Below are positions 19,093 through 30,833 of a stretch of DNA of 64,000 nt, one piece after another. The stretch lies in contig OY282441.1 of the NCBI GenBank assembly GCA_958296105.1, positions 186,001-250,000 on the forward strand, given 5' to 3'. The position numbers and the translations under genes are program-made. Below the pieces are notes generated by a model. The model was not told the origin of the DNA. It made no database searches and worked only from the letters and a program-made list of their open reading frames with translations. The stretch comes from an uncultured Dehalococcoidia bacterium (GTDB lineage: Bacteria; Chloroflexota; Dehalococcoidia; Lucifugimonadales; UBA1123). Each line of letters begins with the position of its first letter. The first letter of the stretch is position 1.

Positions 19093-20865
19093 ATGAACCC
19101 CGTCACACTCGAAATCATACGCGGCGCCGTCGCATCCACCATCCGCCAGATGGAGGCGCTCATCGAGCGCACAGCCATGTCTCCCGTCATCAAGGAGAAG
19201 ATGGACTACTTCGTCGCCATCTACGACCTAGAAGGCCGCATCGTAGACGGCTTCCTGTCCACGTCCGGCCCCCGCATCGTCGACCCCGTCCTCGAAGCCT
19301 ACCCCATAGAGGACATGCGCCCCGGCGATCTCTACTGGTACAACGACCCCCACCGCTCCAGGGGCGCGATCCAGCACACCGGCGACATGTGCTTCACCTC
19401 CCCCGTCTTTCATCAGGATACCCTCGTCGCCTTCGCCGTCAGCTACGGCCACTTCTGGGACATCGGCGGAAGCGTAGCCGGCAGCCTCTCCCCCCGCGCC
19501 TCCGAGATATTCCATGAGGGAACCCTAGTTCCCCCCATCAGAATCATGCGCGCCGGAGAGATCAACCGCGAGGCATACGCCATAATACTCAACAACAGCC
19601 GCTTCCCGGACATGCTCGAAGGCGACACCCGCGCGCTCATGGCAGCCTGCCGCCTAGCGGAAGAGCGCCTCGCCGAGCTGATGGACCGATACGGACAGCC
19701 CACCGTGCTGACGGCTTTCGATCACATCGTCAGCCGCAGCGTGGCAGCTTACAGAAAATTCGCGCGCGAAGTCATCCCAGAGGGCGAGAGCCACTTCTTC
19801 GACTACGTCGACCGCGACCCTGTGGACGGACAGCCCCGCCGCGTGGATGTCAAGCTGCTGCGCCAAGACGGCCGCATCGTGGCAGACCTCAGCGCAAGCG
19901 GCCCGCAGGCTAGGGGCCCCGTCAACTTCATCACCAGCCCCGGCGCGTTCAACCTCATCCTCGCGCGCCACCTGAGCTACATGGACCCAGACCTGCCGCT
20001 GAACGAGGGCGCCGTATCGTTCCTGGACGAGGTCAGGACGCGCCCCGGCACCATCACCCATCCCAACTTCCCCGCCCCCGTCGGCCTTCGCAGCCACACC
20101 GTCATAAGACTCATGGACATCATGGGCGGCATACTCGCGCAGGTCGCAGACGGCGCAGGCCCAGCCGCCTCGCCCGTCTACGTCATCTACAACCTGCGCA
20201 GCGTGGACGACAAGGGCCGATACCTCTACTTCAGCGAGGGCATAGGCTCCGGACAGGGCGCGCGCCCAACCGCAGACGGGCTCAACGTCATCTACTTCCG
20301 CGACCAGCGAAACTACCCCATAGAGTTCGAGGAGGGCGAATTCCCGCTCAGAATCGAGAGATACGCCATACGCCCAGACTCCGGCGGCCCCGGCCTCCAC
20401 CGAGGAGGATGCGGAGTCGTCCGCGATGTCCGCGTGCTGGTCGACTGCACACTCAGCACGCGCATGGACAACGCGCGCTTCCCGTGCTTCGGACTCAACG
20501 GCGGTCGCGCCGGACAGCCCGGGCGCATCGTCATAAACCCCGACTCCCCGAACGAAAACCGCGTCTCGCCCGCCGGCGAGAACATCCCGCTCAGCGCAGG
20601 CGACCTGCTCCGCGCCGAAACGCCCGGCGGCGGAGGCTGGGGACACCCATACGACAGAGACCCCCGCGCCGTCCTCGAGGACGTCCGCGAAGGCTTCGTC
20701 ACCATCCAGTCCGCCCGCGAAGACTACGGCGTCTCCCTGACCGCAGACCTCGCCATAGAGCCAGACGAGACCGCCACCCTACGCGCCCACAGCCGCCCCC
20801 GAATACCCCAAGTAGACCGAGGCCCCCAGGCCGCCCACTGGCTGCGCCGCCTCGCCGCCCAGTAG
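19093..20865 (+). CDS. Hydantoinase B / oxoprolinase family protein
   Basis: A 590-residue protein of the HyuB family, usual length 520-600. Typical segments are NPVTLEIIRGAVASTIRQME at the start, YNDPHRSRGAIQHTGDM, FAVSYGHFWDIGG, and the glycine-rich TPGGGGWGHPYDRDP at the C-terminus. HyuB works with HyuA to open hydantoin or oxoproline-type rings using ATP. No hyuA is adjacent, so the partner or exact substrate is unknown. Confidence 0.9.
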   Translation: MNPVTLEIIRGAVASTIRQMEALIERTAMSPVIKEKMDYFVAIYDLEGRIVDGFLSTSGPRIVDPVLEAYPIEDMRPGDLYWYNDPHRSRGAIQHTGDMCFTSPVFHQDTLVAFAVSYGHFWDIGGSVAGSLSPRASEIFHEGTLVPPIRIMRAGEINREAYAIILNNSRFPDMLEGDTRALMAACRLAEERLAELMDRYGQPTVLTAFDHIVSRSVAAYRKFAREVIPEGESHFFDYVDRDPVDGQPRRVDVKLLRQDGRIVADLSASGPQARGPVNFITSPGAFNLILARHLSYMDPDLPLNEGAVSFLDEVRTRPGTITHPNFPAPVGLRSHTVIRLMDIMGGILAQVADGAGPAASPVYVIYNLRSVDDKGRYLYFSEGIGSGQGARPTADGLNVIYFRDQRNYPIEFEEGEFPLRIERYAIRPDSGGPGLHRGGCGVVRDVRVLVDCTLSTRMDNARFPCFGLNGGRAGQPGRIVINPDSPNENRVSPAGENIPLSAGDLLRAETPGGGGWGHPYDRDPRAVLEDVREGFVTIQSAREDYGVSLTADLAIEPDETATLRAHSRPRIPQVDRGPQAAHWLRRLAAQ

Positions 20866-21036
20866 AAAGCGAATCTCCCATCCCCCCAATGCGCGAGGGC
20901 TGGAGCGAGGGCCGGAGCGAGGACGAAAAGCCCATACGCCGCCCCGCGCCCCAATTCCCAGTTGACACCGCGCCCCTTCGCTCATACCATTGGAACAGTT
21001 TGAGAGCTTGCCCCGTCTCTTGGTTGTGTCGCCGCC

Positions 21037-21912
21037 ATGCAGTCCAGCCACACCATACTGCCGCAGACCACTGCGACCAGATATGAGGTCGCGGAGTTTC
21101 GAGACGTCTCCTACCGCACCTATCGCGCGGAGCTGAGAATCCTGCGCCTTCAGTTGCTGCTGCTTCAGGAGTGGGTCGTGGAGCAAGGCAGGCGCGTAGC
21201 CATCGTCCTAGAAGGCAGAGACGCCGCCGGAAAAGGCTCCACCGCCTCCGGCATCACCCACTACCTAGATCCCAAGTCCGCCAGCATAGTAGTGCAGGGG
21301 ATACCCTCCCCCAAGAAGATGCGAAACTGGCTCGGATCCCACTACAATTCACTGCCAGAACCCGGCAGCATAACCGTGTTCGATAGGTCATGGTACTCTC
21401 GCGCCCTCATACAGCCCGTAATGGGCTACTGCTCCATGAGGCAGTACGGCTACTTCCTGAGCCGCGTCAACGACTGGGAGCGCGAGATCGTAGACGAAGG
21501 CGTAGACCTGCTCAAGATATACCTGTCCGTCTCCCGCGAGGCGCAGAGCCTCAGATTCCGCCTTCGCCAGAACAGCGAGCTTCAATACTGGAAATACTCC
21601 GCCACCGACCGCAGGGCAGCCGAGCGATGGCACATGCTCACCTACTTCAAGGAGCGCATGTTCGCCGTCACCTCCACAGACTACGCCCCGTGGATCGTCA
21701 TAGAGTCGGACAACAAGCATCAGGCGCGCCTCAACGTCATCCATTACATCCTCAGCCGCTTCGAGTACGAGGGAAAAGACCTCAGCCTCGAATCCCTACA
21801 GCCAGAGACAGACTCCGACAAGCTCACCAGCGTGATCGTCGACGGCGTTCTGTTCAAGGACATGGATGCCGACCAAGTGGAAGTGCTGGAACGGATTCTA
21901 ATGCATGAATAG
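21037..21912 (+). CDS. Polyphosphate kinase 2 family protein
   Basis: A 291-residue PPK2-type P-loop kinase. Walker A is EGRDAAGKGS at about residues 58-67, the second acidic motif is TVFDRSWYSRA, and SDNKHQARLNVIHYIL lies near the end. These enzymes transfer phosphate between polyphosphate and nucleotides. The gene overlaps the following Nudix gene by 8 bp, so they are likely co-expressed. A second PPK2 of different sequence is at 37.8 kb. Confidence 0.92.
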   Translation: MQSSHTILPQTTATRYEVAEFRDVSYRTYRAELRILRLQLLLLQEWVVEQGRRVAIVLEGRDAAGKGSTASGITHYLDPKSASIVVQGIPSPKKMRNWLGSHYNSLPEPGSITVFDRSWYSRALIQPVMGYCSMRQYGYFLSRVNDWEREIVDEGVDLLKIYLSVSREAQSLRFRLRQNSELQYWKYSATDRRAAERWHMLTYFKERMFAVTSTDYAPWIVIESDNKHQARLNVIHYILSRFEYEGKDLSLESLQPETDSDKLTSVIVDGVLFKDMDADQVEVLERILMHE

Positions 21913-22348
21913 AGAAGCCCTCCCGCGTATGGCAGCCGCCGGAGGACTTGCGCTCTGCGGCGGCCATGTACTGCTCATCAGAAAACATGGACTGTGGGAC
22001 ATCCCCAAGGGCAAGCGCAAGAAGAGCGAAGACCCCAGACGCTGCGCCATTCGGGAGATCGCCGAAGAGACCGGCCTAGACCCCGAACGCCTCTTCGTAA
22101 GAAGACTCCTCTTCCAGTCCAGCTACATCTCGTACTACTCCGGCAGTCCGTTCGACAAGACCGTGGACTGGTTCCTGCTCGACTATCGCGGCAGACTCAC
22201 CGACCCCCTCTACCCAGACCTCTCTGAAGACATCGACCGTTGCCGCTGGATCGCCGTTGACGATCTCATACAGACCCTCGATACAGCCCGCCCGTATCTC
22301 CGCAGCGTTCGCGCCCGAATAGAGCAGACCATCCACCTGATCCAATAG
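21905..22348 (+). CDS. Nudix hydrolase
   Basis: A 147-residue protein with a perfect Nudix box (GX5EX7REUXEEXGU): the box begins at the G of PKGKRKKSE and ends with REIAEETGL. The fold hydrolyses nucleoside diphosphates linked to another group. Coupling with PPK2 suggests a task in polyphosphate or nucleotide metabolism, for example diphosphoinositol- or Ap4A-like substrates, but sequence alone does not decide. Confidence 0.92.
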   Translation: MNREALPRMAAAGGLALCGGHVLLIRKHGLWDIPKGKRKKSEDPRRCAIREIAEETGLDPERLFVRRLLFQSSYISYYSGSPFDKTVDWFLLDYRGRLTDPLYPDLSEDIDRCRWIAVDDLIQTLDTARPYLRSVRARIEQTIHLIQ

Positions 22349-22354
22349 AACGGC

Positions 22355-22688
22355 GCGGCGTATGACCGCCCCGCAGACGCCGCAAACCCCACGCGGCATA
22401 TGACCGCCCCGCAGACTCCAAAATCCGCCTCGGCTCCTCCGCCGCGCGTCGCACGCCTGCCCTCACGACGTGGAATTCCAACGCCGTCTCTGCCATACTT
22501 GCTCCATGGACACGCCACCCTGAACGGAGGCACGCTCACGGCGCGGCGTATGACCGCCCCGCAGACTCCAAAAATCCGCCTCGCCTCCTCCGCCGCGCGC
22601 CGCACGCCTGCCCTCACGACGTGGAATTCCAACGCCGTCTCTGCCATACTTGCTCCATGGACACGCCACCCTGAACGGAGGCACGCTC
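22355..22688. repeat. 150-bp direct repeat forming a duplicated gene leader
   Basis: Two copies of a ~146-bp sequence, 22393-22537 and 22543-22688, offset by 150-151 bp and differing by a few bases; a short partial third copy of the front part is at 22355-22378. Each copy ends in GGAGGCACGCTC, the ribosome site of the next gene. In the second copy the start codon GTG follows; in the first copy the equivalent codon is ACG, so it is a leader without a gene. No other gene is seen in this 340-bp gap. Confidence 0.9.
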
Positions 22689-23171
22689 GTGGAACGCTAC
22701 TGGCTCATCGGCGGCGGCGCGCTCTTGGCTGTTCTGCTGGTTGCGAGCGTCGCCCTCGCGCTGGGCAGGGGAGAGGACACCCTCGCCCCGAACTCCCCCG
22801 AGTACGCCGTCCAGTCGTTCCTGCGCGCCATTGAGAGCCGCGACTTCGCCGCCGCCGACTCTCTGCGCTCATCCGAGCTTCTGCGCGCTTGCCCTCCGAG
22901 CCGCTACCCCACGCTGGACATGCGAGGAAGCCTCGACGAGCTGGACGATTCGCGGATTACTCTGAGCGGCGTAGAGACCATGGACGAGATCTCCGTAGTA
23001 ACCGTTATCCAGACCGTGCGCGGCGGCGGCGTGTTCAGCAGCTACGAGTGGGACGACGAACACCGCTACGCCCTTCGGCGCGAGGACGGCGCATGGAGAA
23101 TAGACGCCTATGTATGGCCCTACGACGAATGCGTATGGGAGCGCTTCGAATCCTCGGACACCCTGCGCTGA
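22689..23171 (+). CDS. Small membrane-anchored protein, module 1
   Basis: A 160-residue protein beginning with GTG, 8 bp after GGAGG; the frame runs on upstream but into the repeated leader. It has one N-terminal membrane helix (about residues 5-25, WLIGGGALLAVLLVASVALA) and a soluble domain starting with NSPEYAVQSFLRAIESRDFA. That domain looks like the tetratrico/NTF2-type extracytoplasmic domain of many anchored proteins (segment EYAVQSFLRAIESRD, then a terminal WRIDAYVWPYDEC), but I assign no family. A paralogue with the same layout is at 25128. Confidence 0.75.
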   Translation: MERYWLIGGGALLAVLLVASVALALGRGEDTLAPNSPEYAVQSFLRAIESRDFAAADSLRSSELLRACPPSRYPTLDMRGSLDELDDSRITLSGVETMDEISVVTVIQTVRGGGVFSSYEWDDEHRYALRREDGAWRIDAYVWPYDECVWERFESSDTLR

Positions 23172-23204
23172 GCCGCTTGGCTCCAGCTTGGTAAGGACTA
23201 CGCC

Positions 23205-25013
23205 ATGGACATCTTCGCCATCGCCTTACTCCAGATAGCGCTGATCCCGCTCGTAATCATCGGCGGAATCGCCTACGCGATCTACGTATGGAGACGACGC
23301 GCCAGCGATTCGGACGCGCCCGACGGGGGGCTGGGAACCCCGCGCCGATTCTACTTCTACTCCATCTCGTTCATCGCCCTGATGATGCTCGCCGGCGGCG
23401 TCATGACAGTCTTGTCGAGCCTCTTGGTCGAGCTTTTCGGCGATCCCGTCCTGCGAAATTCCACCGTCAGGCTGGCGACCGGCCTCGCGCTCACCATAGT
23501 CGGCGCGCCCCTGTGGGCGCTCCACTGGCGCTTCGTCCAGCTCCGATCCTCCGACACGCCCGCAGAGAGCCGATCCGTCATCAGAAAGCTCCACCTCTAC
23601 GTCACGCTCGGAGTCGCGCTCGCCTTCCTCGCCTACAACGGATCACGCCTGATCGCCTCTCTGCTTGGCGGCGAATACGCTTGGACGTCCTCACTGTCCG
23701 CCCTCGCCGTCTGGACGCTCGTATGGGCGTACCACTGGCGCGCAGCAGCCGCCGAGCATCCCGAAACGACTCTCGAGACACGCGGAATCAGACGCCTCTA
23801 CCTCTACCTCGCCTCCGCGCTCGGCATCTCCATGCTCGCATCCGGACTCGGCTGGCTCGTCCACATAGCCTTGGACGAGGGCCGCATCGCTCTCTTCGCC
23901 GTCACCGTGATCGACGCCGGCGACACCGGACTTCTGCGCTCCGCCGCCAGAGTGTCCCTGTCCGTCGCCATCGTTGGCGCCGCCATATGGTGGCCACACT
24001 GGTTCCGATTCGCCGCGCGCGAGCCGAACTCCCTGCTGAGGCGGCTGTACCTGTTCGCCGTCTCCGTTGGCGGCGCTTTCGTCATGCTGATCGGACTCGG
24101 ACTCCTGCTGAACTCGGCCCTCTGGTGGCTGCTCGGAGCGGCGGACGATCCGCCAGCCGTCCACTTCGAGACGATCCCACCAGCCACAGCCACCGCCGCC
24201 GTTGGAATCGCCCTGTGGCTGGCGTTCAGACGCCGCCTGTTCGCGGAGGCTTCCGGCAGCGATTCGATACCCGTCTCGCGGATATACGACCTGCTGCTGT
24301 CCGCCCTCGGACTAGCCGCCCTCGCCGCCGCCGCGTTCACCATCTTGGACGCCGCCATCCGCCTGATAGCTGGAACGTCCCCCGTCATGGTGGAAGACCA
24401 GTCTCGGCTGATGTCTCGAATCGCAGACACCCTGACCCTGCTGATACTTGGCATACCCACTTGGGGCATCCACTGGCGCAGACTCCAGACAGCCGCCCAC
24501 GCCGACCCCGAATCCGAGCGACCCGCCCTTCCGCGCAAGCTGTACGTACTTGGCGTCCTGTGTCTGGGCGTGCTGGCGCTCGTGGGCGGCCTCAGCGCCA
24601 GCCTGTTCATGTTCCTGCGCGACCTTCTCGCCGCCGATCTGTCTTCCGAAACACTGCGCGACCTCTCCGCCGCCCTCTCCACGACCTTCACCGCCCTGTT
24701 CGCCCTGTCCTACCACTGGACTGTCTACCGCCACGACAGACAGTTCGAGCCGGACGAGCCGACCCCCGAGCCTGCCCGAAAGCGCGTGACCCTGATCGCC
24801 GCCCCCCAGTCCGCCGCCGTCCTCGCCGCCGCTTTGGAGTCCGCCATCGGATACCCCGTGACCACCCTGCGCTGGTCGGACGCCCAAGCCTTCGCCCCCG
24901 CCCTCGACGCTCGCGCGCTGGAAGAGACTTCCCGCGCCATCGCCTCGTCCCCTGGAAGCCGCGTACTCCTCATCCCCGAGCCCCACGGCCTCCGCGTAAT
25001 CTCCCACGAGTGA
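23205..25013 (+). CDS. DUF5671-type multi-pass membrane protein, module 1
   Basis: A 602-residue protein made of repeated two-helix units, each beginning with a RRLYLY-like motif (RRFYFYSISFIALMM, RKLHLYVTLGVALAF, RRLYLYLASALGISM, RRLYLFAVSVGGAF, RKLYVLGVLCLGVL). This repeated pattern is that of DUF5671 domains. A cytosolic C-terminal domain of about 90 residues (VTLIAAPQSAAVLAAALESA onward, ending LLIPEPHGLRVISHE) follows. SD AAGGA precedes ATG by 8 bp. It sits 33 bp after the small anchored gene, and both are duplicated downstream, so they probably act together. Function unknown. Confidence 0.8.
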   Translation: MDIFAIALLQIALIPLVIIGGIAYAIYVWRRRASDSDAPDGGLGTPRRFYFYSISFIALMMLAGGVMTVLSSLLVELFGDPVLRNSTVRLATGLALTIVGAPLWALHWRFVQLRSSDTPAESRSVIRKLHLYVTLGVALAFLAYNGSRLIASLLGGEYAWTSSLSALAVWTLVWAYHWRAAAAEHPETTLETRGIRRLYLYLASALGISMLASGLGWLVHIALDEGRIALFAVTVIDAGDTGLLRSAARVSLSVAIVGAAIWWPHWFRFAAREPNSLLRRLYLFAVSVGGAFVMLIGLGLLLNSALWWLLGAADDPPAVHFETIPPATATAAVGIALWLAFRRRLFAEASGSDSIPVSRIYDLLLSALGLAALAAAAFTILDAAIRLIAGTSPVMVEDQSRLMSRIADTLTLLILGIPTWGIHWRRLQTAAHADPESERPALPRKLYVLGVLCLGVLALVGGLSASLFMFLRDLLAADLSSETLRDLSAALSTTFTALFALSYHWTVYRHDRQFEPDEPTPEPARKRVTLIAAPQSAAVLAAALESAIGYPVTTLRWSDAQAFAPALDARALEETSRAIASSPGSRVLLIPEPHGLRVISHE

Positions 25014-25127
25014 CCATTAGCCCCTGCCCCCATTCTCACCAGCTGCCAAATCGGGCATGTGACAGCCAGCCTCGTATGCGATACTGTGCTTCGATTCAGC
25101 ACACACTCCCAGCAGGCGGGGCGATTC

Positions 25128-25643
25128 ATGGAACGGCATTGGCTCATCGTCGCGGGAGCGATTCTCGGAGTACTGCTGATCTCCACCCTCGCCGCGCTTC
25201 TGACGAGAGGAGAAGCCGAGTTCGCCGCCGGCTCCCCCGAGTATGCCTTTCAGCAGTACGTAAAGCTCCTCGTTCGAGAGGACTACGACTCCGCCAAAGC
25301 CATGTGGTCCGTCGGGCTGCGCGAGCAGTGTTCCTTCGATGAGTTCCTGCCCGTTGCTGGGCGCGAGGTAGGCGAATATCGGGAAGGGCGGGTGAGAGTC
25401 TTGCTGGAAGACGTGGATCCGCCGCCCGAACGCTATATGGAAAACGATGGCACATCTCTGATCACCCTGCGCGTGACCCGTGTCAACAGACCTTTCGGAT
25501 TCTGGCCGTACAGCAGCCGTGACCGCCTCCATCTGTTTCGCGTAGTCTCTGACGGCGGCAGGTGGCTGGTAGATGGACACACTTGGCCTCCATACGACAG
25601 CTGCATGTACCATTACGCCGGACTCCAATCCGGCTACGACTGA
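25128..25643 (+). CDS. Small membrane-anchored protein, module 2
   Basis: A 171-residue paralogue of the gene at 22689. It starts MERHWLIVAGAILGVLLIST, with a single membrane helix, then GSPEYAFQQYVKLLVREDYD, a conserved element shared with module 1, and ends DGHTWPPYDSCMY. Start chosen at ATG 25128 because it aligns with the GTG start of module 1. A 36-bp segment inside it is repeated exactly in the following gene. Confidence 0.75.
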   Translation: MERHWLIVAGAILGVLLISTLAALLTRGEAEFAAGSPEYAFQQYVKLLVREDYDSAKAMWSVGLREQCSFDEFLPVAGREVGEYREGRVRVLLEDVDPPPERYMENDGTSLITLRVTRVNRPFGFWPYSSRDRLHLFRVVSDGGRWLVDGHTWPPYDSCMYHYAGLQSGYD

Positions 25644-26186
25644 AGCGCGCCGCAATTTCGGACAGCCTTCTTCGGGAGCAGACCCATATGGAAATCTTGA
25701 TTGCGTTCATAATCTGGCCCATCTTCTTGTTCGCCGGTATGAGCGGAGTCATCTGCGGCGCATACTTCCTGCGCGGAGGCAGGCTGAACGCCGTGTCCGA
25801 TGCCGGCATCGGAACGCCGCGCCGCATCTATTTCTACTTCATGTCGTTCGTTGCGCTGATGATGCTGGCGAGCGGCGTCATAACCGTTCTCGTTGCGCTG
25901 ATGGACAGGCTGTTCTATGCGAGATTCGTCATCGACTCCTCCACCGTCACCCTGTCCATAGGCTTAGCGCTGTCCATCGTAGGGCTTCCCCTATGGCTGT
26001 TCCACTGGCGGTTCGTCCAGCGCGCCGCCGCCGATATGCCGTTCGAGCAGAGGTCCATTGTCCGAAAGCTGTATCTGTACGCCGCGCCCGCCGTCGCGCT
26101 GAGCTTCATCGCCTTCAGCGGATACAGAGTATTGGAGTACCTGCTGGGCGTCGCCGCGCTTCTGACGAGAGGAGAAGCCGAGTTCG
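25189..26186 (+). repeat. 36-bp exact repeat shared by two adjacent genes
   Basis: Positions 25189-25224 and 26151-26186 are identical over 36 bp and are in the same reading frame in two unrelated proteins, giving the peptide AALLTRGEAEF in both. In the small anchored protein it lies after the membrane helix; in the DUF5671 protein it lies between membrane repeats and has no counterpart in the module 1 paralogue. This suggests a short copy or conversion event. Confidence 0.9.
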
Positions 26187-27625
26187 GCGAGGCTGCGAAT
26201 CTGCTGCGCGTCGGGAACGACTTCTTCTCATTTGGGTGGGCTGCGCTTGCTGTGTGGGGTGTGGTGTGGGGGTATCACTGGCGCGCGGCGTTTGCCGAAA
26301 GCCATGCCACGCCCGAAACTCGCGCCGTCCGTCGGCTGTACCTGTATCTCGCGTCGAGCTTGGGGCTGGCGATGTTCGCCGCAGGCTTCGGCTGGCTGGC
26401 GTACATCGCCATACTGAACGGATACCACATCGCATTCGGCATCCCTCTCATCGGCGCGTGGAGCGCGAACGCGCAGACTTCGCTCTCCGTCGGTTTGGTC
26501 GGATTCGTCATTTGGTACATGCACTGGTTCAGGTTCGCCGCAGACGCCGCAGACGCCGCGGACGCCGCAGATGACAGAAGCTCGGAGCTTCGGTGGGCAT
26601 ACATGTTTCTGGCTGCTGTGGGCGTCGGCGTGATTGCGACGTGCGTCGGCTCGTCCATAGTTTTGGAGTCGCTGCTGACGTGGATTCTGGGATTCGCAGA
26701 CGAACCCGCGATCGACCATTTCAGACCCCTGCCGGGCGCGCTCGCAACGCTGGCAGTCGGCATCGCTCTCTGGACGTACTTCAGACTCCGCATGAGCAGA
26801 GAAGCCGTTGGAGTAGAGGTCAGACACGTATCGAGGATATACGACCTGCTGCTTGCCGCGTTCGGTCTGATGGCGCTCGGCTTGGCTTTGGGTATGGCGG
26901 TGGAAACGCTGCTGCGCGCGGTCGCTGAAATCTCTCCGTCCGTCGTTGGCGACGGCGGCGTTCAGTGGCAGGGCAGGGCGACGACGATCCTCGCCCTGCT
27001 GGCAATAGGAGCGCCGCTCTGGTGGATGCACTGGCGCATAATCCAGTCCGCCGCGTCTGCCGAGCCGGGAACCGAGCGAACCGCCCTTGCCCGCAGGATA
27101 TACATATTGGGATCGCTGTGCATCGGAGCGCTGGCGCTGGCGTCAGGCGTCAGTTCCACGCTGTTCGTACTGCTGCGCGACCTTTTCGACGTCAGCATAT
27201 CCGCGAACACCCTGCGCGACCTCGCGTTTCCGTTGTCCATCGCCTTGCCGCCCGCCCTCGTCCTGCCGTACCACTGGACGATCTATCGCCAAGACAGACA
27301 GTTCGAGCCGGACGAGACCGCCCCCGAGCCTGTCTCTGCGCGTGAACAGCCCGCCGACCTTGCGCCGCCCCCGCAGCCTGCGCCCGACGCCCGAAGGCGA
27401 ATCACACTGCTGACTCCCCCGGACGGTCACGACTTGGCAGCCCGGATCGAAGCCGCGCTTGGGTACCCGCTGACCGTCGCCGACTGGCGCAACCCCGACG
27501 CCTTCGCGCCAGCCCTCGACTCCGAGCGGCTCGACCGCCTGCTGGGACAGATCGAAGCCGCGCCCGGCCCCAACATCATCCTGATACCCGATGGACACGA
27601 TCTGAAAGTAGTCTCCCACGCCTGA
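25688..27625 (+). CDS. DUF5671-type multi-pass membrane protein, module 2
   Basis: A 645-residue paralogue of the gene at 23205, with the same repeated units (RRIYFYFMSFVALMMLASGV, RKLYLYAAPAVALSF, RRLYLYLASSLGLAMF, RRIYILGSLCIGALAL) and the same C-terminal cytosolic domain (RITLLTPPDGHDLAARIEAA, ending LIPDGHDLKVVSHA). Compared with module 1 it has an insertion containing the 36-bp repeat and a DAADAADAADD tract. I chose ATG 25688 (GGGAG upstream), which aligns with the paralogue; an upstream frame extension is unlikely. Confidence 0.8.
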   Translation: MEILIAFIIWPIFLFAGMSGVICGAYFLRGGRLNAVSDAGIGTPRRIYFYFMSFVALMMLASGVITVLVALMDRLFYARFVIDSSTVTLSIGLALSIVGLPLWLFHWRFVQRAAADMPFEQRSIVRKLYLYAAPAVALSFIAFSGYRVLEYLLGVAALLTRGEAEFGEAANLLRVGNDFFSFGWAALAVWGVVWGYHWRAAFAESHATPETRAVRRLYLYLASSLGLAMFAAGFGWLAYIAILNGYHIAFGIPLIGAWSANAQTSLSVGLVGFVIWYMHWFRFAADAADAADAADDRSSELRWAYMFLAAVGVGVIATCVGSSIVLESLLTWILGFADEPAIDHFRPLPGALATLAVGIALWTYFRLRMSREAVGVEVRHVSRIYDLLLAAFGLMALGLALGMAVETLLRAVAEISPSVVGDGGVQWQGRATTILALLAIGAPLWWMHWRIIQSAASAEPGTERTALARRIYILGSLCIGALALASGVSSTLFVLLRDLFDVSISANTLRDLAFPLSIALPPALVLPYHWTIYRQDRQFEPDETAPEPVSAREQPADLAPPPQPAPDARRRITLLTPPDGHDLAARIEAALGYPLTVADWRNPDAFAPALDSERLDRLLGQIEAAPGPNIILIPDGHDLKVVSHA

Positions 27626-27688
27626 GAATCCCACGCCTGATCATCAGCCCATCAGCCCCTGCCGTGATTCGCGTTTCCGTGGTCGCTG

Positions 27689-28489
27689 TCAAACCCGTGT
27701 CACCCTCGCCATGAAGCTGTTTGCATCCGGCTCGATGAGTCTAGCCGCATCGACCACGCTGGCGAGTACCCACCCCGCCGCGCTCGGCGTCCACTCTGGC
27801 ATCGTGACGAACACCCCCATATCCGATTTGGGAGCGACAGGGTAGAACGGCGTCTCGGCTGGGACGTTGACCGCGTTCCGCTCGGACACAGCCACAGCCG
27901 TTCTGAATTCGAATGGATAGGTGTCCTTGTGCTGAAGTGTGGCGACCAGCTCGGAAACGTCATGGCATCCGAGCAGGTCTTGATCGAAGGCTACTATCGC
28001 CTCGGCTCCCGCCTTCGAGTCCGTATTGAACCAGTTGAGCGCAGACACCAGGTACCAGCGACAGGATCGCGTACCGGTCTCCAGTTCACTCGCCGTCACT
28101 TGGAGACCGGACAACTCGACTGCTCCAAACCGGCCGAGAGCGTCACTGAAACATTGAACCAGTGCCGCCAGCGCAGTGACCGGCTCGCCGCTTCTCCGGC
28201 GTATCGGCAGCCCCGCCCAGCCTGGGACCGGGTCCGTCGGAATACTGAACGCCTCGAAGGGTCCAACCCCCAACCCGACCTGTACCCATCCGATACGGTA
28301 CGGGTCAGTATCTGCGGTTATCTCCGCTTCCTCCATCGACCACAGCAGCGGACTTTCATCGGACGTCGCAGCCCAGCCCATCAGCTCGGCCCGCGCCCTG
28401 AATACGCTGTGGAGGTCTTCTTCTTGGGCATCTATGACTGCCGGGCCGGATAGCTGCCCGAAAGCCTCGATGAAGAGCGTTGTCGACAT
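27689..28489 (-). CDS. Hypothetical protein
   Basis: A 266-residue soluble protein that I do not recognise. It has no membrane segment, signal peptide or obvious catalytic motif; the sequence is balanced, with conserved-looking blocks (VQVGLGVGPFEAFSIPTDPV, YLVSALNWFNTDSKAG, GVFVTMPEWTPSAAGWVLAS). It lies 23 bp downstream of the enolase-superfamily gene in the same direction, so the two may be co-transcribed. Confidence 0.65.
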   Translation of the reverse strand: MSTTLFIEAFGQLSGPAVIDAQEEDLHSVFRARAELMGWAATSDESPLLWSMEEAEITADTDPYRIGWVQVGLGVGPFEAFSIPTDPVPGWAGLPIRRRSGEPVTALAALVQCFSDALGRFGAVELSGLQVTASELETGTRSCRWYLVSALNWFNTDSKAGAEAIVAFDQDLLGCHDVSELVATLQHKDTYPFEFRTAVAVSERNAVNVPAETPFYPVAPKSDMGVFVTMPEWTPSAAGWVLASVVDAARLIEPDANSFMARVTRV

Positions 28490-29849: not shown

Positions 29850-30833
29850 TCAGGGCGCGCCGGACAGAGACGCGCACGCGATCCCGTCCCCGTCCCTGTC
29901 CAGTCGGTGCGGGTCTTCTGCCGGTCCGCCCTCTGCCTCGAAGAACGCCTGCGCCTGCGCCCACGAATCGAAGTCCGAGCAGTCGAGATCCACGAACGGC
30001 GCGGAAGTCGCCGTTGGGTTCGGCGTCCTCGCCGCCGGCGCGCTCGCGTCGGACGCGCCCCCAGCCGTGGGCGTGGCTGTCGGCTGACCATCCGCCCCCA
30101 GCCGTCGCGCTGGCGGCTCCTCGCGGCGCGTCTGTATGAACACGTTGGCATCGCACGTATCCGCCATCTCCCGCAGAGCCTCCGCCTCGTCCTCCGTCAC
30201 ACTCAGCCCCCACTCGCGCTTTATCGCCATCCAGTCCAGCGCGTACTGGCACCAGTACCCCGAATCCGGCGGACGCCACCCCTCCGGCCCGTTCGCGCCC
30301 TTAGCGCGGTTCGCCCGCGCCGTCGCAGCTGTCAGATGCCCCCCGTAATCTAGGTAGTTTGCGTACTCCTCTTTCCGCTCCCTAGTCCACGAGTGGCCGC
30401 CCGACCTGTGCGCGTTCGCCAGCGGCACCATGTGATCTATGTCCAGCGCGCCCGGATCCCTCACCACCGTTCCCGTGTACGGCCCCACCCAGCGCCCGGA
30501 CTCCACCCGACATCGCCGAGACCCCTCGAACGTCACCGGCGCGGTCGATTCCGCTATCAGCGTCTCCTGTCGCGCGTCTTGACAGTCGCCGTCCGCGTCC
30601 GTCCAGTGCTTCCAGTCCGACCTTCTGTACTTCGGCATCTGCGGATCGTGAGCGGCAACCCTCAGCTCCAGCGTCAGCGAGGCGGCGCGCGCCGCCTCGG
30701 GCGTGGCAGCCTGCGCCATCCGAGTCGGGACGACGCGCGGAGTCGCCCGCTCGACGACCGAGCCGCGCGAGCTTGCGCACGCCCAGACCAGAACGCAGAC
30801 CAGACAGATAACCAGCAGCAGCGCGCGCGCCAT
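29850..30833 (-). CDS. Secreted HNH nuclease with Excalibur domain
   Basis: A 327-residue protein. It starts with a hydrophobic signal (LLLVICLVCVLVWACASS), and the WAC could be a lipobox. A DUF1524-like HNH region follows (ALDIDHMVPLANAHRSGG, then a downstream NYLDYGGHLTA and Asn-rich AARANRAKG-like segment). Near the C-terminus is an Excalibur calcium-binding domain with DRDGDGIACASL. The combination gives an exported or cell-surface DNase. It is divergent from the plus-strand peptidase at 31016. Confidence 0.82.
   Translation of the reverse strand: MARALLLVICLVCVLVWACASSRGSVVERATPRVVPTRMAQAATPEAARAASLTLELRVAAHDPQMPKYRRSDWKHWTDADGDCQDARQETLIAESTAPVTFEGSRRCRVESGRWVGPYTGTVVRDPGALDIDHMVPLANAHRSGGHSWTRERKEEYANYLDYGGHLTAATARANRAKGANGPEGWRPPDSGYWCQYALDWMAIKREWGLSVTEDEAEALREMADTCDANVFIQTRREEPPARRLGADGQPTATPTAGGASDASAPAARTPNPTATSAPFVDLDCSDFDSWAQAQAFFEAEGGPAEDPHRLDRDGDGIACASLSGAP

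Follow-up and report, generated by a model that had tools for sequence, protein, structure and literature searches.

A conserved gene pair in Chloroflexota: a small membrane-anchored, predicted NTF2-like protein beside a six-hairpin DUF5671 membrane protein

In many Chloroflexota the gene for a small membrane-anchored protein stands beside the gene for a large, internally repeated DUF5671 membrane protein, and because the two genes are found side by side in so many of these genomes, their products probably work as one membrane complex. The pair is kept across several classes of the phylum, which points to a conserved function that is named by no annotation or paper that we searched. The pair unites two orphan families, one of them DUF5671 and the other an unnamed family of membrane-anchored NTF2-like proteins, in one testable object, and it is present in a named species, Thermomicrobium roseum. 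The starting point was a window of 64,000 nucleotides (the whole stretch of DNA analysed here, bases 186001-250000 of its contig) from an uncultured Dehalococcoidia bacterium, in which the pair occurs twice.

The duplicated module and its two proteins

An earlier note on this DNA had described two tandem pairs of the same order and layout, each composed of a single-helix protein with a soluble domain followed by a large membrane protein of repeated units with a cytosolic tail. Both pairs are present as four intact frames, all on the forward strand and in the order small1-large1-small2-large2 (Table 1).

Table 1. Features of the duplicated module (positions within the window)
Feature	Position	Strand	Description	Basis
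small1	22689-23171	+	160 aa; GTG start, GGAGG ahead; one N-terminal transmembrane helix and a predicted NTF2-like domain	ORF and AlphaFold2 model
large1	23205-25013	+	602 aa; DUF5671 protein; low-confidence N-terminal helix, then six hairpins of two helices and a cytosolic alpha/beta tail	PF18920 E 2.3e-56; model mean pLDDT 84
small2	25128-25643	+	171 aa; small1 paralogue, 30% identity	Profile match E 1.4e-41
large2	25688-27625	+	645 aa; large1 paralogue, about 49% identity	PF18920 E 1.3e-48
duplicated leader	22420-22537 and 22571-22688	+	118 nt each, 116/118 identical	Repeat search and direct count

All DUF5671 matches in the 3.18 Mb single-contig genome fall in large1 and large2, which carry five PF18920 stretches apiece and belong to the family with scores of 189.7 and 164.7 bits, above the curated cut-off of 28.4. 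A Pfam search with small1 and small2 found no family at E ≤ 1 (the small2 query started at 25131, one codon late, and lacked only the Met). The identities between the paralogues indicate that the duplication is old. The second copy of the leader stops immediately before the start codon of small1; a genome search found no copies beyond these two, and a scan of 22300-27900 for sigma-70 promoters and terminators found none.

Two longer insertions in large2 are missing from all 27 other rows of the alignment. One, of 19 residues, contains a 39-nt stretch (26151-26189) that recurs, 38/39 identical, in small2 (25189-25227), and this copy looks like a templated in-frame insertion. A dispersed element was considered and rejected, as the genome has no third full copy of the stretch and merely two 23-nt partial matches. 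The other insertion, at 26538-26569, consists of AAD repeats from GCAGACGCC units.

The AlphaFold2 model of the small protein (mean pLDDT 86) agrees with the layout proposed for it, with a helix at residues 3-27 and an NTF2-like fold behind. Searched against the PDB, the model matched 23 chains at E ≤ 0.001, most of which we take to be NTF2-like proteins (CaMKII hubs, ketosteroid-isomerase-like proteins); its PDB matches also include SnoaL-type proteins and the MecA_N domain of PBP2a. In fold comparison the Z score rose to 9.6 (112 residues), a little higher than the range that the tool treats as uninformative, and the small protein is accordingly assigned a predicted NTF2-like fold. Pfam matches among 22 small proteins are weak: DUF4864 in eight (best E 0.0072), DUF4440 in three (0.0013) and MecA_N in three (0.0055). 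Two cysteines are both found in 42 of 64 rows; across 120 rows, 39 have both, 63 neither and 18 one only (Fisher p 1e-15, not corrected for relatedness). Because these cysteines co-occur, and because one homologue (L055) has a lipobox, we suggest that the NTF2-like domain lies outside the cell. A second lipobox candidate, in L243, was not convincing.

The model of the large protein comprises an N-terminal helix of low confidence, twelve more helices and, at residues 527-601, a tail of mixed strands and helices. Its repeated character is borne out by profiles of the six two-helix units, which match one another in all 15 pairwise comparisons (E 1e-6 to 1e-21, as single comparisons); the tail does not match the unit profiles (E 0.2 to 0.61, six comparisons). 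Basic residues place that tail inside the cell, as had been claimed, with mean K+R counts of 1.4-5.2 at the six inner loops versus 0.6-1.8 at the six outer ones (flanks included). Conservation is likewise skewed towards the cytosol: the inner 12 residues of the helices score 0.62 and the outer 12 residues 0.535, and the 60 most conserved positions (22 sequences) are divided among inner thirds, inner loops or tail (33), the middle (19) and the outer side (8, including the start Met and one Arg in the window, R227). Columns more than 75% conserved among 120 sequences include R-R-x-Y-x-Y, G-x-P-x-W-x-x-H-W and acids in inner loops. On the helix map of the large1 model, the charged columns at this level of conservation lie at cytosolic helix ends or in inner loops, and none lies in mid-membrane, a distribution that would disfavour ion-coupled transport.

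The small protein and the six-hairpin core are constant in pairs, and the cytosolic tail differs by lineage. Among 121 paired large proteins, the profile of the N-terminal helix was matched in 44 and that of the tail in 48; other tails are longer and alpha/beta-like with a final hydrophobic helix (32/38 in the group), or shorter, and two of the shorter ones read like coiled coils (L098, L100). The two alpha/beta-like tail groups align weakly (probability 35%, E 4e-4). One long tail, that of L247, matches DUF3842 (E 1.1e-6; 29.5 bits versus a cut-off of 28.5), a match that ties together two functionally uncharacterised families. A profile built from eight tails matched a 'circular tendon repeat protein' in the PDB at E 1.2e-8, and no stretch passes alone; neither this match nor a second one (E 0.2) was given weight. 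The large protein itself found no PDB match at E ≤ 0.001. In fold comparison, stretches of about 130-160 residues matched ABC transporter-type proteins with Z up to 9.0 over 137 residues, below the tool's informative level for helical bundles, and such matches over a four-helix stretch may reflect a common arrangement.

Pairing across the order, the phylum and named genomes

The earlier note had allowed that the pairing might be a chance local duplication, if the small protein were absent beside DUF5671 proteins elsewhere. We searched other genomes for both families, and the surveys of the window's order, of the phylum and of named genomes all found them together, which rules that explanation out.

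DUF5671 matches occur in 47 of the 98 genomes sampled from the window's order; judged by open frames, 35 of them (the window's own included) have the long protein or pieces of it at contig ends, and 12 have short forms only. The loci read comprised 34 long ones (the window's own left out) and six short ones. A small gene, called by a widened small-protein profile, is directly upstream in 32 of the 34 long loci. The remaining two are L066, which has just 78 nt ahead of the large gene, and L065 (genome G041), which has room upstream yet no small gene; a small-profile search of these two genomes found no match elsewhere at E ≤ 1. All six short loci looked at are without a small partner.

At the scale of the phylum, 99 of 301 sampled Chloroflexota genomes match the long-DUF5671 profile at E ≤ 1e-10, and the small gene is directly upstream in 80 of the 99 (78 by coordinates, plus G209 and G293 from reading the DNA); the count based on DNA is 79/98 loci, with G000 left out. 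Because the sampled genomes are related, these figures are counts of genomes, not of independent events; G000 and G021 are in both samples. The 19 unpaired genomes consist of 11 from family f76, two from f87, two from f78, and G129, G307, G144 and G295, so that 13 of them belong to two families. In G144 and G295 the locus is at a contig edge without room for the small gene (184 nt and 3 nt, respectively); at the edge in G144, 27 residues may be the end of a frame resembling the small gene, with an E of 0.6 only. That 19 of 99 genomes have a large protein without a detectable small gene indicates that the core can exist without the small partner. In all 11 f76 loci (L166-L176) the unpaired long DUF5671 gene is downstream of a same-strand gene, whose product we take to be a membrane-anchored trypsin-like protease.

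A scan of named contigs gave 25 DUF5671 loci, 21 of them from Chloroflexota, and the small gene is upstream in 20 of these 21; in the last (L101) the large frame starts 44 bases from the contig edge. Several named records are the same genomes as ones in the other samples; 11 named loci chosen as additions to the order and phylum sets are all paired. Paired named loci include an Anaerolineales MAG (L099) and a Caldilineaceae MAG (L100), and the records nearest to the window's large proteins come from the SAR202 cluster and other Chloroflexota MAGs, which suggests that the window's genome is SAR202-like. In T. roseum the pair sits on a 918 kb plasmid, where the first gene is annotated as 'nuclear transport factor 2 family protein' and the second as 'DUF5671 domain-containing protein'; this plasmid was the single match in a plasmid collection.

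The association also holds from the side of the small protein. Among the matches listed, the 74 strongest places for the small-protein profile (73 genomes, all stronger than E 2.7e-13) are all beside a long DUF5671 gene. Eight weaker loci, read in seven genomes, encode NTF2-like proteins with a membrane anchor, several of them carrying parts that are proline-rich or FHA-like, and none of the eight is beside a DUF5671 gene. No fusion of small and large proteins was found among the 121 pairs in loci with pairs. The tandem duplication of the pair is local and not a general feature: each of the two other sampled genomes from the window's genus has its DUF5671 matches in a single gene.

A candidate membrane complex and its alternatives

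The proposal in the earlier note that the pairing reflects a complex gains support from the adjacency conserved across Chloroflexota, from which we infer physical contact; that the small and large proteins form one physical membrane complex is, in our judgement, likely. The genes are closely spaced, with a median gap of 22.5 nt (computable in 62/67 loci; the genes abut or overlap in 13, and the gap is ≤100 nt in 56), although start codons were chosen by rule and single values may be wrong. Covariation was calculated over 120 of 123 pairs. Averaged over the 20 highest inter-protein scores, the real pairs exceeded every one of 25 shuffles at either cluster threshold. The highest single score, however, was reached in 5 and in 7 of the 25 shuffles, and within-cluster shuffling removes relatedness only partly. 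Identities of the small and large proteins correlate at 0.877, a value obtained without a control and expected from vertical descent. An alternative is that the genes are together for expression reasons and that their products, co-regulated but separate, do not touch. The mixed covariation result leaves room for such separate proteins, as does the large protein found without a small gene in 17 of 99 genomes having room for one; the order of the pair, however, is kept across classes while other neighbours change, the trees (below) fit a joint duplication, and the strongest small homologues among the matches listed adjoin a long DUF5671 gene. We hold separate proteins to be improbable.

In the complex that we propose, the small protein would anchor by its one helix and keep its NTF2-like domain outside the cell, and this outer head would bind a ligand or an envelope component. 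The large protein would contribute a core of twelve helices, arranged as six repeated hairpins, and a C-terminal cytosolic module that varies by lineage. The hairpins carry versions of a single motif that faces the cytosol, in which R-x-x-Y-x-Y opens the first helix and G-x-P-x-W-x-x-H-W comes near the end of the second; the core would position the outer head, or relay to a cytosolic output or docking module. A head on a scaffold with cytosolic output is favoured because neither head nor core changes from pair to pair, the tail can be exchanged and the mid-membrane region is without conserved charge. We give roughly even chances to this picture of an external NTF2-like head, a six-hairpin scaffold and lineage-variable cytosolic tails in which sensing or scaffolding is likelier than ion-coupled transport; given a complex, a sensing or scaffolding role as such has at best an even chance. 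A bolder version, in which the pair would be an undescribed kind of widespread Chloroflexota membrane machine with a six-hairpin core bearing six similar cytosolic basic-aromatic sites, an external NTF2-like head coupled through the membrane and exchangeable cytosolic outputs, is tentative and on balance doubtful.

The main rival casts the twelve-helix core as a transporter or channel, with the NTF2-like protein as its accessory subunit. A core of twelve helices in repeats would suit such a role, and some neighbours point the same way: two of ten individually checked ones are from metal-transport families (CNNM/CorC at L195, VIT1 at L202), one is an MFS gene (L060), and upstream of the pair in T. 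roseum are Trk genes and a 'hemolysin family protein'. These transport neighbours, however, change from locus to locus. Two of 22 large proteins have weak Cation_ATPase_C matches (best E 0.013) and an MnhB/MrpB-type NCBIfam model matches large2 at E 0.086, far below its cut-off, but the 22 are without any significant Pfam transporter family, and both the PDB search and the cytosolic placement of the conserved charges described above argue against transport. Overall, we consider a transporter or channel unlikely, while giving it real weight. NTF2-like folds include enzymes, and the pair might instead be an integral-membrane enzyme whose substrates are lipids or lipid-linked molecules, with the NTF2-like domain taking part in binding or catalysis. 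The ketosteroid-isomerase-like and SnoaL-type proteins among the PDB matches of the small model are in line with this, as are the conserved His, Trp, Tyr and Arg residues near the cytosolic face of the core; yet the most conserved small-protein positions (W136, P37, L129, V104, C148 and F116) make no clear acid/base set, and the predicted topology would put the conserved core residues on the face opposite the NTF2-like domain. An enzyme seems to us very unlikely. A sensing or scaffolding complex is the reading that we prefer.

Duplication history, neighbours and related families

In trees of both proteins (20 rows), WIN1, WIN2 and the congener L036 group together (support 100/99 and 97/94), consistent with a joint duplication of the whole pair in the lineage of the genus. 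WIN2 joins L036 in the small-protein tree (94/83), and the duplication may thus be older than the divergence from L036; the large-protein tree leaves the trio unresolved.

Flanking genes are shared within the window's family; beyond it, no single neighbour is present at most loci, and none of the neighbours examined is a recurrent gene indicating a pathway beyond the lineage level. Among 62 same-strand neighbours scanned (222 listed), a metallo-beta-lactamase-fold gene recurs seven times and RNase PH five times, both in the window's order as far as traced. A neighbour gene of 672-673 aa recurs at L043, L044, L049, L083 and L084, with weak HemN_C and VWA matches in L043. No type IV secretion family is among the 25 listed of 68 families from the 62 scanned neighbours.

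Several known systems resemble parts of the module. PF18920 is matched by every one of the 22 large proteins in alignment A5, but here the DUF5671 unit is repeated to six hairpins and comes with an NTF2-like partner, whereas DUF5671 proteins of Patescibacteria (four loci) are short (145-168 aa), read as one hairpin and have no partner. Of 22 small proteins, 20 reach E ≤ 0.01 (best 3.8e-8) with the model for the Rv0361 family membrane protein (NF051431), with small1 (24.6-25.1 bits) and small2 (12.7 bits) both short of its cut-off of 37 bits; we know of no DUF5671 partner for Rv0361. The MecA_N domain of PBP2a-type penicillin-binding proteins matches in fold (4dki, Z 9.3, rmsd 3.0 over 108 residues) and weakly in sequence, but the small proteins stand alone, with 160-171 aa in the window and no transpeptidase part. 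In type IV secretion, VirB8-type subunits have a single membrane helix and, after it, an extracytoplasmic NTF2-like domain in the service of a larger membrane machine; here the partner is a DUF5671 protein instead. For a pairing of MmpS/MmpL type, no RND/MMPL permease is among the 11 Pfam families found for 22 large proteins at E ≤ 1. A phage or defence origin was rejected: PADLOC anti-phage defence models gave 0 families at E ≤ 0.1 for the four proteins, and large2 has one insignificant PHROGs match (E 0.029). A partial match of large2 to an NCBIfam family of type VI effectors (E 0.0012; 17.4 bits versus a cut-off of 150) was given no weight. In the open-access literature we found no paper naming DUF5671, PF18920 or DUF3842, most subscription papers being outside the search, and among the matches listed for SAR202, membrane protein and NTF2-like, none concerns the pair by title.

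A few genes around these loci are recorded as observations in their own right. At 19093-22348 of the window, three genes separate the module from the flanking gene that adjoins it in the congener G005; the three are one that we take to be hydantoinase-like, then a PPK2 and a NUDIX gene. In Patescibacteria, the short DUF5671 genes at L102 (3587-4090) and L103 (3683-4117) lie between what look like IscU and Nfu genes, and a likely cysteine desulfurase gene comes next. On the reverse strand of the window, 29850-30833 encodes a protein with GmrSD_C and Excalibur domains.
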